From assembly GCF_024345995.1 (NCBI RefSeq), contig NZ_JAGQCE010000002.1, positions 310,001 through 374,000 of the forward strand: DNA of 64,000 bases. The letters run 5' to 3'. The position numbers and the translations under genes are program-made. Positions 15,275-23,836 of the stretch are shown piece by piece. This DNA is from Synechococcus sp. Cruz-7E5 (GTDB lineage Bacteria > Cyanobacteriota > Cyanobacteriia > PCC-6307 > Cyanobiaceae). The notes below the pieces were generated by a model. The model was given only the letters and a program-made list of their open reading frames with translations, ran no database searches and was not told the origin of the DNA. Position 1 is the stretch's first letter. The number at the start of each line of letters is the position of its first letter.

Positions 15275-15329
15275 GGCAGCTGGACGTTCCGGCTTCTAGA
15301 TTCCGTCCTGAGTGGATGGAATCTCGGAC

Positions 15330-15572
15330 ATGGTGCAATCGGAGCAGGTGAAAGAAGCGATCTGCGCCAGCCTTCCCGATGCCGAGGTGGAGGTCGAGGA
15401 TCTCACCGGTGGTGGCGACCATCTCCAGGTGAAAGTGGTGTCCTCAGCCTTTGCCGGTCTCTCGAGGATCAAGCAGCACCAGTTGGTTTACGCGGCCCTG
15501 CGCCGTGAGCTGGCCAGTGAGGCCATCCATGCCCTCGCATTGCAGACCACAACCCCCGTTGGTGTGGGCTGA
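15330..15572 (+). CDS. BolA family protein
   Basis: 80 residues from ATG 15330; a GTG six codons earlier (15312) is also possible. It shows the BolA/YrbA core: N-terminal helix, acidic [19 protein letters not shown] strand region and a [17 protein letters not shown] helix. BolA proteins bind monothiol glutaredoxins through a shared [2Fe-2S] cluster, and grxD follows 45 bases downstream, supporting a working pair in iron-sulfur trafficking. The His of the DHLQ segment is a plausible cluster ligand. Confidence 0.85.
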
Positions 15573-15617: not shown

Positions 15618-15941
15618 ATGGACAGCGCCGTCAAGCAACGCATCGACAGCCTTCTGAGCAGCAGCCCGATCGTGGTGTTCATGAAGGGCTCGAAGCTGAT
15701 GCCCCAGTGTGGGTTTTCCAACAACGTGGTTCAGATCCTCAATTCCCTGGGCATGCCGTTCGAAACTTTTGATGTGCTCTCCGATCCGGAGATTCGTCAG
15801 GGCATCAAGGAGTTTTCGGAATGGCCCACCATTCCCCAGGTGTATGTGAATGGCGAGTTCATCGGTGGCTCAGACATCCTGATCGAGATGTACAACTCCG
15901 GCGAGCTGCGTGAAACCCTCACGGTGGCCCTGGCCAGCTAG
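15618..15941 (+). CDS. grxD: Monothiol glutaredoxin, Grx4/GrxD type
   Basis: 107 residues with the CGFS active site at residues 31-34 (preceded by KGSKLMPQ), followed by the TIPQVYVNGEFIGGSDI glutathione-binding region. CGFS glutaredoxins assemble glutathione-ligated [2Fe-2S] clusters and deliver them or sense iron. Located directly downstream of a BolA gene, its known partner family. Full family length; start ATG at 15618. Confidence 0.93.
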   Translation: MDSAVKQRIDSLLSSSPIVVFMKGSKLMPQCGFSNNVVQILNSLGMPFETFDVLSDPEIRQGIKEFSEWPTIPQVYVNGEFIGGSDILIEMYNSGELRETLTVALAS

Positions 15942-16025: not shown

Positions 16026-16292
16026 TCAGTTGCGGCTGTTCTCGAACAGGGTGCTGACATTGCCGTCCGGCCCGATGAAGCTGGAGGGATCCATGATCCA
16101 ACGCTCGATCAGGTCTTCAAGGCGACGTTGATCCAGAGGTTGCAGCACGGAACCGCGGCGTAGGGCATGCAGGTAGCCATCCGCATAGAGCCTGAGTTCC
16201 GAGGGGCTGTGGTAGCGGCTGGCCAGATCCTGGCAGGCGTCACAGATTGACTGGAAGTGACGGATGGCGTCAGGATTCTGCAGCGCGGTCAT
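16026..16292 (-). CDS. Small conserved-looking cyanobacterial protein (possibly DUF6761)
   Basis: 88 residues, cytoplasmic and helical. The segment NPDAIRHFQSICDACQDLASRY, then LRLYADGYLHALRR and IERWIMDPSSFIGPDG, matches my memory of a small family found across cyanobacteria (probably DUF6761), but no function is known to me. Convergent with grxD (84-base gap) and divergent from the response regulator. Confidence 0.65.
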   Translation of the reverse strand: MTALQNPDAIRHFQSICDACQDLASRYHSPSELRLYADGYLHALRRGSVLQPLDQRRLEDLIERWIMDPSSFIGPDGNVSTLFENSRN

Positions 16293-16466
16293 GGGGCACA
16301 GGCTGTCTGGGCGGGCGTGGCATCGATGGATACCGACTGCTCCCGGCGTGTATCAGGTAGCCTAGAGACTCACCCGTGGCCGCGTGTGGAGCTCACACCC
16401 AAGCCGGATTCCGTTGATCCAACCCCCGCCAAGCTGACGCTTGAGCCACGTACCGGCGGGGCCTCC

Positions 16467-17204
16467 ATGCTGAAGCGGGTTCTGGTCGTCGATCCCCATC
16501 CGACCCTGCGAACGGTCCTGGCCCAGCGCCTCCGTCAGGATGGATATCTGGCAGCAGCCGTGGCCACGGCTGCTGAAGCCCTCCAGCTCTGCGACGACCA
16601 GACTCCCGACCTGCTGGTGAGCGCCGAACTGCTAGAGGAGAGCACGGCCCTGCGCCTGGCGGCCCATCTGCGTTCCCCGGTGATGGTGCTCACGGCCCGC
16701 ACCGGTGCTGATTCGTTGGTGGCCCTGCTTGATGCTGGCGCCGACGACGTCCTGCGCAAGCCCTTCGGTCTGGAGGAACTGGCTGCCCGCTGTCGCAGCC
16801 TGCTGCGTCGCAGCGGCACCGGCCTGCAGGAGCGGGTCTGCGTTGGTCCGCTGGAGGTGCACCTGCTGCTGCGCCAGGTGACCCTGCGCGATCAGCCAGT
16901 GGAGCTCAGCCCCCGTGAATTCGCCCTGCTCTGTGCCCTGCTGATGCCACCGGGGATGGTTCGCAGTCGCCAGGAGCTGCTGCGCATGGCCTGGCCTCCG
17001 TTCAGTGGGGGTCCCCGCTCGGTCGACACCCAGGTACTCACCCTGCGCCGCAAGCTTGAACTGGCTGGCCTTGGCGAGGGCGGTGGCATCGAAACGGTGC
17101 GCCAGCAGGGATACCGCTTCAGCCTGGAAACTCTTCCCGAAGCGCCTGAGCCTTCCCTAAGCCCGGCTGGCGGTGTCCGTCCCCAGAGCGCGAGCGCCAG
17201 CTGA
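16467..17204 (+). CDS. Atypical OmpR-type response regulator
   Basis: 245 residues from ATG 16467. Residues 4-115 are a receiver-like domain and ~125-220 an OmpR/PhoB winged helix (PVELSPREFALLCALL, RSVDTQVLTLRRKLE, ETVRQQGYRF). The receiver keeps the switch Thr (LTART, ~76) and the Lys (RKPF, K98). The position of the phospho-accepting Asp reads LLVSAELLEE, with Ala53 aligned to that Asp, and the usual N-terminal acidic pair is reduced to a single Asp (VVDPHP). It is therefore unlikely to be controlled by phosphorylation of that residue. No sensor kinase is adjacent. The C-terminus after 222 is a Pro/Ser-rich tail. The open frame extends 70 codons upstream of this ATG, but that part shows no domain. 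Confidence 0.85.
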   Translation: MLKRVLVVDPHPTLRTVLAQRLRQDGYLAAAVATAAEALQLCDDQTPDLLVSAELLEESTALRLAAHLRSPVMVLTARTGADSLVALLDAGADDVLRKPFGLEELAARCRSLLRRSGTGLQERVCVGPLEVHLLLRQVTLRDQPVELSPREFALLCALLMPPGMVRSRQELLRMAWPPFSGGPRSVDTQVLTLRRKLELAGLGEGGGIETVRQQGYRFSLETLPEAPEPSLSPAGGVRPQSASAS

Positions 17205-22864: not shown

Positions 22865-23836
22865 TCAGACGGAGCCGAAGGCCACCTGACAGGCTGCATT
22901 CACCAGCTCTGCTTCAGCAGCATTGCTTGGTTCGCGGCCATCCAGAAGGCCCTGGTTGCAATCGGCCGAGAGCTGGTAAGTGCTGCCATCGCTAGTGACG
23001 GCGAAGCTGACTCCCTGGGAGCCGGAGGGCTGAATCGAGCCGTAGAGCAGCTGGTAGTCGGTGTTGGGAACAACGATGTAGGTGGCGTTGCTGCTGATTG
23101 CATTGTCGACAGCATTGTTGATGACGGCTGCAGTGGCCAGGGAGGCCACACCCCAAGTTGCGGCTCTTGCCCCCCACCATCCCCAGGAGGGAGAGGACCA
23201 GCCGCCATACCAGCCGGCATTCCATGGCCGGGCCACCCCCCAGCCCGGACGAGCCCAGCCTGGGCTGACATTCACATTGCCGATGTTGACGCGCCGATTC
23301 GTATTCCAATTCACGTTTCGGTTGATATTTCTATTCACGTCCCGACTGATATTCCTATTTATATCCCGATTGATGTTCCGGTTCACATCCCGATTCACGT
23401 CCCGGTTGATGGACCTGTTGCCGTCGAAATTTCCGCTTCTATTGAAGTCGCGGTTGCCGCTGCGATTGAGATCGCGGCTGATGTTGTTCGATCCGGAGGG
23501 CCGTTGGATTGATGGCCGCGCTGAGGGTGACGACACCCTGTTGCTCCAGCCGCCATTGGGTCGGCTGTTGCCGCGGTTCAGGCTCGCGCCTCCGCCGCTC
23601 ATGCCTGTGCGAACACGGTTGCTTCCACCACCGCCACGGCTACCGCCACCGCCACGGCTCCCACCGCCACCACGACTGCCGCCGCCACGGCTTCCACCGC
23701 CTCCTCCCCTGGCCAGCAGCTCAGTGGTGATGGGGTTCTGGCTGTCTCCAGGCCATCTGTCCAGTGCCAGTGCTGAGCTTGCCGGGAAGGCGAGCACGCC
23801 GGAGAGTAATAGGCTTAATCCAGGGATTCCTTTCAT
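22865..23836 (-). CDS. Exported repeat protein, Gly/Ser/Arg then Asn/Arg repeats
   Basis: 323 residues. Signal peptide 1-25 (LSLLLSGVLAFPASSALA). Residues 44-73 are GGGGSR repeats, and 118-190 are a 4-residue Asn-Arg register (units such as NRDV, NRNI, NRDI). A Trp/Gly/Pro-rich stretch follows at ~190-235 with a short hydrophobic part, and the C-terminal ~90 residues look folded, with two cysteines (SADCNQGLLDGREPS, NAACQVAFG). It has no catalytic motif. The basic, low-complexity design suggests binding to a polyanion such as cell-surface polysaccharide; that is inference. Its ATG overlaps the stop of the upstream gene by four bases. Confidence 0.75.
   Translation of the reverse strand: MKGIPGLSLLLSGVLAFPASSALALDRWPGDSQNPITTELLARGGGGGSRGGGSRGGGGSRGGGGSRGGGGSNRVRTGMSGGGASLNRGNSRPNGGWSNRVSSPSARPSIQRPSGSNNISRDLNRSGNRDFNRSGNFDGNRSINRDVNRDVNRNINRDINRNISRDVNRNINRNVNWNTNRRVNIGNVNVSPGWARPGWGVARPWNAGWYGGWSSPSWGWWGARAATWGVASLATAAVINNAVDNAISSNATYIVVPNTDYQLLYGSIQPSGSQGVSFAVTSDGSTYQLSADCNQGLLDGREPSNAAEAELVNAACQVAFGSV
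23267..23485 (-). repeat. 12-base-period repeat encoding Asn-Arg units
   Basis: Inside the exported repeat protein. The unit encodes N-R-(D/N)-(V/I/L), sometimes with an inserted Ser-Gly, in about 15 imperfect copies. The copies vary at the DNA level (ATT/GTT/GTG, GAC/AAT swaps), so the array has diverged while keeping the Asn-Arg register. Confidence 0.8.
23621..23707 (-). repeat. Gly-Ser-Arg coding repeat
   Basis: Tandem GGGGSR / GGGSR coding units, residues 44-72 of the same protein. On the plus strand this reads as CCACCGCCACGG-type units, a register prone to slippage, so copy number may vary between strains. Confidence 0.8.

Follow-up and report, generated by a model that had tools for sequence, protein, structure and literature searches.

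A picocyanobacterial OmpR-type regulator without its phospho-acceptor aspartate: a very probable NrrA/Rre37 orthologue that is likely to be controlled by its amount

The locus and its features

The window, i.e. the whole stretch of 64,000 nucleotides of Synechococcus sp. Cruz-7E5 that was analysed, encodes an OmpR/PhoB-type regulator composed of a receiver and a winged helix, as the earlier note had described from the translation of 16467-17204 (+). Both domains pass their Pfam cut-offs (Response_reg, 56.6 vs 30.2 bits; Trans_reg_C, 57.9 vs 26.2 bits). The gene, its putative promoter elements and its neighbours are listed below, with residue numbers that follow the ATG at 16467.

15312..15572, + strand: BolA-like gene, frequent neighbour (PF01722)
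15618..15941, + strand: glutaredoxin gene, frequent neighbour (PF00462)
16026..16292, - strand: DUF6761 gene, divergent neighbour (PF20547, 116.7 bits)
16320..16333, + strand: variant NtcA-type box GCA-N8-TAC, a promoter motif of putative function
16358..16363, + strand: -10 element TAGCCT (TAN3T), 24 nt after the GCA-N8-TAC box
16386..17204, + strand: probable full coding sequence of the regulator (very probable NrrA/Rre37 orthologue), putative GTG start, 272 aa
16467..17204, + strand: shorter ATG-started frame, 245 aa
16479..16790, + strand: receiver domain turned pseudo-receiver (PF00072, residues 5-108, 56.6 bits, cut-off 30.2)
16494..16496, + strand: Pro10 codon, where the second acidic residue (DD2) would stand; Pro in 97/97 unique in-family sequences
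16623..16625, + strand: Ala53 codon, phospho-acceptor position (four alignments and an AlphaFold model)
16626..16628, + strand: Glu54 codon, invariant (97/97 and 29/29 further sequences)
16692..16694, + strand: Thr76 codon, conserved pocket Thr (T 96, S 1 of 97)
16749..16751, + strand: Val95 codon, replacing the aromatic switch residue at K-3 (V in 97/97 in the family)
16758..16760, + strand: Lys98 codon, conserved pocket Lys (97/97 in the family, 177/177 elsewhere)
16893..17120, + strand: OmpR/PhoB-type winged helix, DNA-binding domain (PF00486, residues 143-218, 57.9 bits)

Here, in-family refers to the picocyanobacterial versions of the regulator and outer to its orthologues in other cyanobacteria. 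The true start is probably the GTG at 16386 rather than the ATG at 16467, which would give a protein of 272 residues. The GTG is preferred because the ATG is not conserved, any start codon being found 3-9 codons before residue 6 in only 24 of 111 in-family rows, and because the in-frame GTG of the window is kept in 8/8 same-genus relatives; many other in-family sequences also carry a GTG at a nearly equal distance.

The DUF6761 gene is present at 108 of the 110 in-family loci, and the glutaredoxin and BolA genes at 106, some genomes being counted twice among these 110. Among the outer loci, DUF6761 lies upstream and divergent in 106/181, and glutaredoxin and BolA occur within 1.5 kb in 66/181 and 54/181, respectively. 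DUF6761, a small family of unknown function, is encoded divergently next to nrrA in numerous cyanobacteria and may be a functional partner; no paper of the open-access literature searched mentions it. One record titled 'MAG: Bifidobacterium breve' (L111, CALPNT020000055.1) carries the picocyanobacterial locus at 82% identity with the same upstream neighbours, and is a mislabelled or mixed assembly. Elsewhere in the window, the predicted protein of 22865-23836 (-) combines a stretch rich in Gly with an extended series of Asn-Arg-Asp/Asn repeats.

The acceptor position

The acceptor site reads LLVSAELLEE, and Ala53 fell on the column of the acceptor Asp in all four alignments made: MAFFT with 181 orthologues (orthologues being among the comparisons proposed in the earlier note), hhalign between profiles, and, with 32 unrelated regulators of the OmpR type, both a MAFFT alignment and an HMM derived from this set. 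In an AlphaFold model of mean pLDDT 81 (an earlier model from 28 close relatives, with a pLDDT of 48, was too poor and was discarded), β3 spans residues 49-53, β4 72-76 and β5 94-97; Ala53 is the last residue of β3, and Ala53, Thr76 and Lys98 occupy the D, T and K places of a receiver. The four alignments and the end of β3 thus confirm the proposal of the earlier note that the phospho-acceptor Asp is replaced by Ala53. Its description of the remaining pocket also holds, as a single N-terminal acidic residue is left (Asp9, followed by Pro at position 10), and Thr76, Lys98 and the winged helix (PF00486, 57.9 bits) are intact.

A shift of Asp48 into the acceptor column, the outcome that the same note had set against its own reading, was looked for and does not occur in the four alignments. 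Spacing also rules out Asp48 as the acceptor: it sits after the strand residue Pro47, five residues before the acceptor position, and the six-residue step from Pro47 to Ala53 is identical to that from Pro to Asp in the orthologues. A one-residue register shift within β3 would place Ser52 at the acceptor. It would agree better with some columns of the orthologues, which have a hydrophobic residue at -1, a small one at +1 and an acidic one at +2, but it requires a deletion inside the strand; in neither register does an Asp stand at the acceptor. The other receivers of the same genome in the search with the 32-regulator HMM all have the Asp (read by eye), a comparison that does not extend to L015, which is below the Pfam cut-off and unmatched by this HMM. 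As a domain recognised by PF00072 that lacks the Asp, the receiver is an aspartate-less receiver, or pseudo-receiver, under the definition given in section 3 of PMC12632262.

Conservation within picocyanobacteria

The Asp-less state is common to the picocyanobacterial versions of the regulator (Prochlorococcus, Synechococcus and Cyanobium) and is no local mutation. Following removal of the paralogues L145-L155 and L318 and merging of identical sequences (in-family 111 to 97 rows, outer orthologues 181 to 177), position 53 was found to be Ala in 95 and Ser in 2 of the 97 unique in-family sequences, with no Asp. A separate set of 30 additional loci, kept apart from the 97 and extending to the most divergent genus encountered, gave Ala in 22, Thr in 7 and Asp in none of 29 sequences, L427 not covering this position. 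Glu54 is invariant in both sets, as is Val95 (97/97 and 30/30). The DD2 residue is Pro or Ala in the family. The stretch from acceptor to Thr measures 24 residues in 97/97 in-family sequences vs 28 in 158/177 outer orthologues, four residues after the acceptor having been lost besides the aromatic switch residue, and the K-3 residue is Val throughout the 97 vs Tyr in 175 and Phe in 2 of the 177 elsewhere. The phosphorylation-independence raised in the earlier note is thereby well supported by sequence, as every in-family sequence read lacks the Asp, an acidic residue at DD2 and the aromatic switch residue.

At E <=1e-50, a match was found in 262 of the 271 family genomes at least 90% complete and in 34/34 genera, the gene being truncated by a contig end in some of the 262 (e.g. 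G418, G426 and G475); two of the nine genomes without a match are listed as 99% complete. In 11 pairwise comparisons, of which two with identical values probably represent one genome, dN/dS was 0.03-0.16 for the receiver and below 0.06 for the winged helix in 11/11, and the winged helix is 97% conserved on average in the family. The regulator is a functional, constrained protein under purifying selection. A pattern scan of viral contigs gave no in-family relative.

Relationship to NrrA/Rre37 and state of the parent family

Elsewhere in cyanobacteria, NtcA turns on NrrA/Rre37 when nitrogen is limiting, and NrrA/Rre37 in turn activates glycogen breakdown. The regulator of the window is very probably the picocyanobacterial orthologue of this protein, an orthology that rests on shared neighbours, profile similarity and promoter layout. 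A profile of the distant orthologues matched at E <=1e-60 in 306 of 388 genomes of the class. Upon rescoring of 80 genomes, all orthologues scored 308 bits or more and the remainder, paralogues or fragments, did not exceed 224 bits, so that a few of the 306 are not orthologues; at least five (G079, G108, G128, G138 and G322) have paralogue-level or fragment scores only. Alignment of the two clades by hhalign gave a probability of 100 and an E-value of 2.3e-41, and the best match of the window protein belongs to the family containing NrrA/Rre37 in 19/23 outer genomes (read by eye). In a quick tree with six in-family rows, which does not resolve the sister clade, the family groups with the outer orthologues against six paralogues. 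The in-family stem is 4.72 changes per column long and the tips are 0.27 at most, a pattern that we read as a probable burst of change followed by near-freezing. Membership of two other regulator families was rejected, the protein scoring 80.3 bits against a cut-off of 300 for NblR (NCBIfam NF045914) and 103.1 bits against 330 for RpaB (NF045944).

The identity of the family with NrrA itself is suggested by a fingerprint. One outer orthologue, L266, read from a GTG, is exactly 250 aa long with Cys at 33, 66 and 116, and its congener L246 has the identical Cys pattern in 258 residues. The same length and Cys positions as in L266 are given for Rre37/Sll1330 of Synechocystis in Table 2 of PMC4361706, a match that came after ten published fingerprints and several start codons had been tried; many loci also matched the single-Cys fingerprints of other regulators by chance, always with a protein of the wrong length. 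In PMC4295605, Rre37 is described as the orthologue of NrrA and both promoters as bound by NtcA.

Outside picocyanobacteria, the parent family appears to have been half-degenerate already before the picocyanobacterial loss. Among the 177 unique outer orthologues, the acceptor is Asp in 159, whereas DD2 is acidic in only 8 and non-acidic in 169, and the Asp occurs together with both acidic residues in only 6. Its retention in 163 of the 181 outer rows suggests some use for the Asp there. In a quick tree of 104 rows, from which the acceptor region had been left out, at least seven unpolarised changes between Asp and not-Asp were counted among the outer orthologues. As a control, RpaB-type regulators had the Asp and an intact DDE in 30/30 loci of 26 genomes, of which 8 are in-family and 18 are outer genomes whose NrrA lacks the Asp; as the control is intact throughout, the loss is a property of NrrA rather than of these genomes or the method. 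Two outer orthologues of one genus with genomes of 2.7-2.8 Mb (L127 and L292) have Ala at the NrrA acceptor with the loop and the Tyr kept, and look intermediate.

Promoter and nitrogen control

In the canonical NtcA-activated promoter, the centre of GTAN8TAC lies near -41.5 and the -10 box is TAN3T (PMC3898017); the spacing between box and TAN3T used here was measured in this analysis. GTA-N8-TAC followed after 22/23 nt by TAN3T was found in 151 of 178 outer upstream sequences (140/166 after removal of near-duplicates), compared with a mean of 0.74 in shuffled sequences and with 0 and 3 matches in reversed and reverse-complement sequence, and the NtcA-type box is kept in 16 of the 17 Asp-less outer orthologues with upstream sequence. 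The canonical GTA-N8-TAC promoter was found in 0/100 in-family intergenic regions, including that of the window. Instead, GCA-N8-TA[CA]-N20-25-TAN3T occurs in 58/100 vs 0.36 in shuffled sequences (43/72 without near-duplicates), and 42/100 are without this variant box too. NtcA control in the family would thus depend on a half-site differing by one base, to which NtcA is presumed to bind. Canonical class II NtcA boxes (22-nt spacer) number 0-2 per genome, below the control pattern, in 5/5 picocyanobacterial genomes (G000, G003, G026, G232 and G333), and the NtcA promoter grammar of the lineage may have shifted.

A reading of the box as a palindromic self-operator was dropped once the outer orthologues showed GTA-N8-TAC. 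A search for a regulon from the promoter motif gave no recurring second site, matches to AAGGCATCGCCTGATACC with 0 or 1 mismatch being confined to 4/16 genomes and, in each of these, to the promoter of the regulator itself. Glycogen phosphorylase genes are reported targets of NrrA elsewhere, and a second exact GGYATC-N4-GATRCC palindrome in the genome of the window (L438) lies inside a carbohydrate phosphorylase gene; it was rejected as evidence of an NrrA target, being intragenic and expected about once per genome by our own estimate. An RNA element in the intergenic region was likewise rejected, the single Rfam match being far under its gathering score.

Proposed mechanism and alternatives

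We consider it likely that the picocyanobacterial NrrA/Rre37 orthologue is a pseudo-receiver regulator that works independently of phosphorylation and is governed by its amount, via nitrogen-dependent expression of its gene. The receiver would be neither phosphorylated on an Asp nor equipped with a complete metal site, and the loss of the aromatic residue would prevent phosphorylation from being transmitted to the dimer face; the Y-T coupling of receivers described in section 7 of PMC12632262 is, judging from the residues present, broken in this regulator. The protein is predicted to fold directly into a form competent for DNA binding, probably a dimer through α4-β5-α5 by analogy with other atypical regulators (sections 16 and 18 of PMC12632262). 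Its output would track protein amount, set by NtcA/2-oxoglutarate via the conserved upstream box and not by a histidine kinase, and its targets are presumed to be NrrA-like. The open-access literature searched yielded no experimental work on the picocyanobacterial protein.

Phosphorylation may have been replaced by a thiol redox switch, in which disulfides or modification of the clade-specific Cys42, Cys109 and Cys156 alter DNA binding; we regard this as unlikely. In its favour, the family has Cys at 42 in 97/97, at 109 in 93/97, at 156 in 97/97 and at 125 in 76/97, against 1, 0, 0 and 0 of 177 elsewhere; C42, C109 and C156 are also present in all 29-30 further sequences covering them, and the receiver Cys at position 65 (174/177 elsewhere) is lost. 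RitR and HP1021-type regulators are described as acting by Cys in PMC12632262, and RpaA, RpaB and ManR as reacting with thioredoxin in PMC4361706. However, C156 stands for a winged-helix Tyr (163/177 elsewhere) and may serve only for packing, and the glutaredoxin and BolA genes that adjoin the regulator also lie beside many outer orthologues and hence do not track the gain of Cys.

A protein partner, e.g. the divergently encoded DUF6761 product, or a small ligand could act through the remodelled β3-α3 surface, a proposal that we hold to be improbable. The β3-α3 loop and α3 are among the usual ligand-binding regions of pseudo-receivers (section 16 of PMC12632262), and the near-constant presence of DUF6761 at in-family loci and its place beside more than half of the outer ones would fit such a partnership. 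Yet orthologues that have the Asp show the same adjacency, which may simply stem from the sharing of a promoter region, and interaction data were not found in the open-access literature. For the ligand sensing suggested in the earlier note, the sequence evidence speaks neither for nor against.

It was also suggested, in the earlier note, that Glu54 mimics a phosphorylated state, and an invariant Glu54 locking an active-like form would provide a built-in phosphomimic. Glu is the commonest residue at the D position of Asp-less receivers (section 18 of PMC12632262), and in the register with a one-residue deletion in β3, Glu54 would fall on the D+2 column, which is acidic in 162/177 orthologues. 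However, Glu54 lies at D+1 or D+2 and not at D, β3 ends at residue 53 in the AlphaFold model, and the aromatic residue that would respond, the Tyr/Phe reader at K-3, is Val in all sequences read. The idea is not supported as stated, and we judge it quite unlikely in its wider form. A decaying pseudogene, a local mutation or a sequencing error, with nothing in favour beyond the lost catalytic residues, is practically excluded by the low dN/dS, the presence in nearly all family genomes, the conserved winged helix and the absence of Asp from both sequence sets.

Beyond control by amount in picocyanobacteria, a broader proposal, whose chances we put at about even, is that NrrA as a whole is not a two-component regulator in practice and that the cyanobacteria-wide NtcA-to-NrrA cascade is kinase-free and signalled by amount. 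The Asp elsewhere would be a relic, its at least seven changes arising most simply by loss, and the receiver would have been rebuilt in one burst in an ancestor common to Prochlorococcus, marine Synechococcus and Cyanobium and have stayed nearly frozen since.

Significance

Asp-less OmpR regulators are already known as a class, and NrrA/Rre37 as a family. No report in print of an Asp-less picocyanobacterial NrrA, or of the rarity of a complete acidic site in NrrA, was found in the open-access literature within the partial coverage of the search. The most reduced genus group of the family (g18, genomes of 1.4-1.8 Mb) has only 2-7 response-regulator candidates in a first look made with this protein, and nearly all of its genomes hold the Asp-less regulator. 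If controlled by amount, it would be one of the few transcription regulators directly under nitrogen control in such genomes, and a search for its cognate kinase would be misplaced. To our knowledge, no cognate kinase is known for NrrA/Rre37; the question of the missing kinase would become one of whether the Asp matters at all, for which the naturally Asp-less outer orthologues offer ready-made variants. Should the kinase-free reading of NrrA hold true, the most abundant phototrophs of the ocean would possess a core regulator with an unstudied control mechanism.

Comparison with known systems

The structural matches of the model include entry 2hqr, which we take to be HP1043, at 23% identity over the model. 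HP1043, ChxR and GlnR are atypical OmpR regulators with pseudo-receivers, as here, although they belong to different lineages, and they are described as dimers without phosphorylation in section 18 of PMC12632262. RitR of Streptococcus, a structural match at 25-26% identity, is likewise an Asp-less OmpR-type regulator and a precedent for Cys control; it acts via one linker Cys (C128 in the titles of structure entries), whereas Cys125 is found in only 76/97 in-family sequences and the invariant Cys lie elsewhere. NblR of Synechococcus elongatus is another cyanobacterial regulator, reported as active without phosphorylation in PMC12632262, but the regulator of the window is not an NblR member. 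The closest likeness is to NrrA (Anabaena all4312) and Rre37 (Synechocystis Sll1330), which share the OmpR-type receiver and winged helix without the second acidic residue, the divergent DUF6761 neighbour in many genomes and an NtcA-type box 22-24 nt before TAN3T. Unlike the picocyanobacterial regulator, most NrrA/Rre37 orthologues keep the Asp, the K-3 Tyr and the full stretch from acceptor to Thr, all three of which are lost here; in addition, the box here is GCA-N8-TAC and about 27 N-terminal residues have probably been added.
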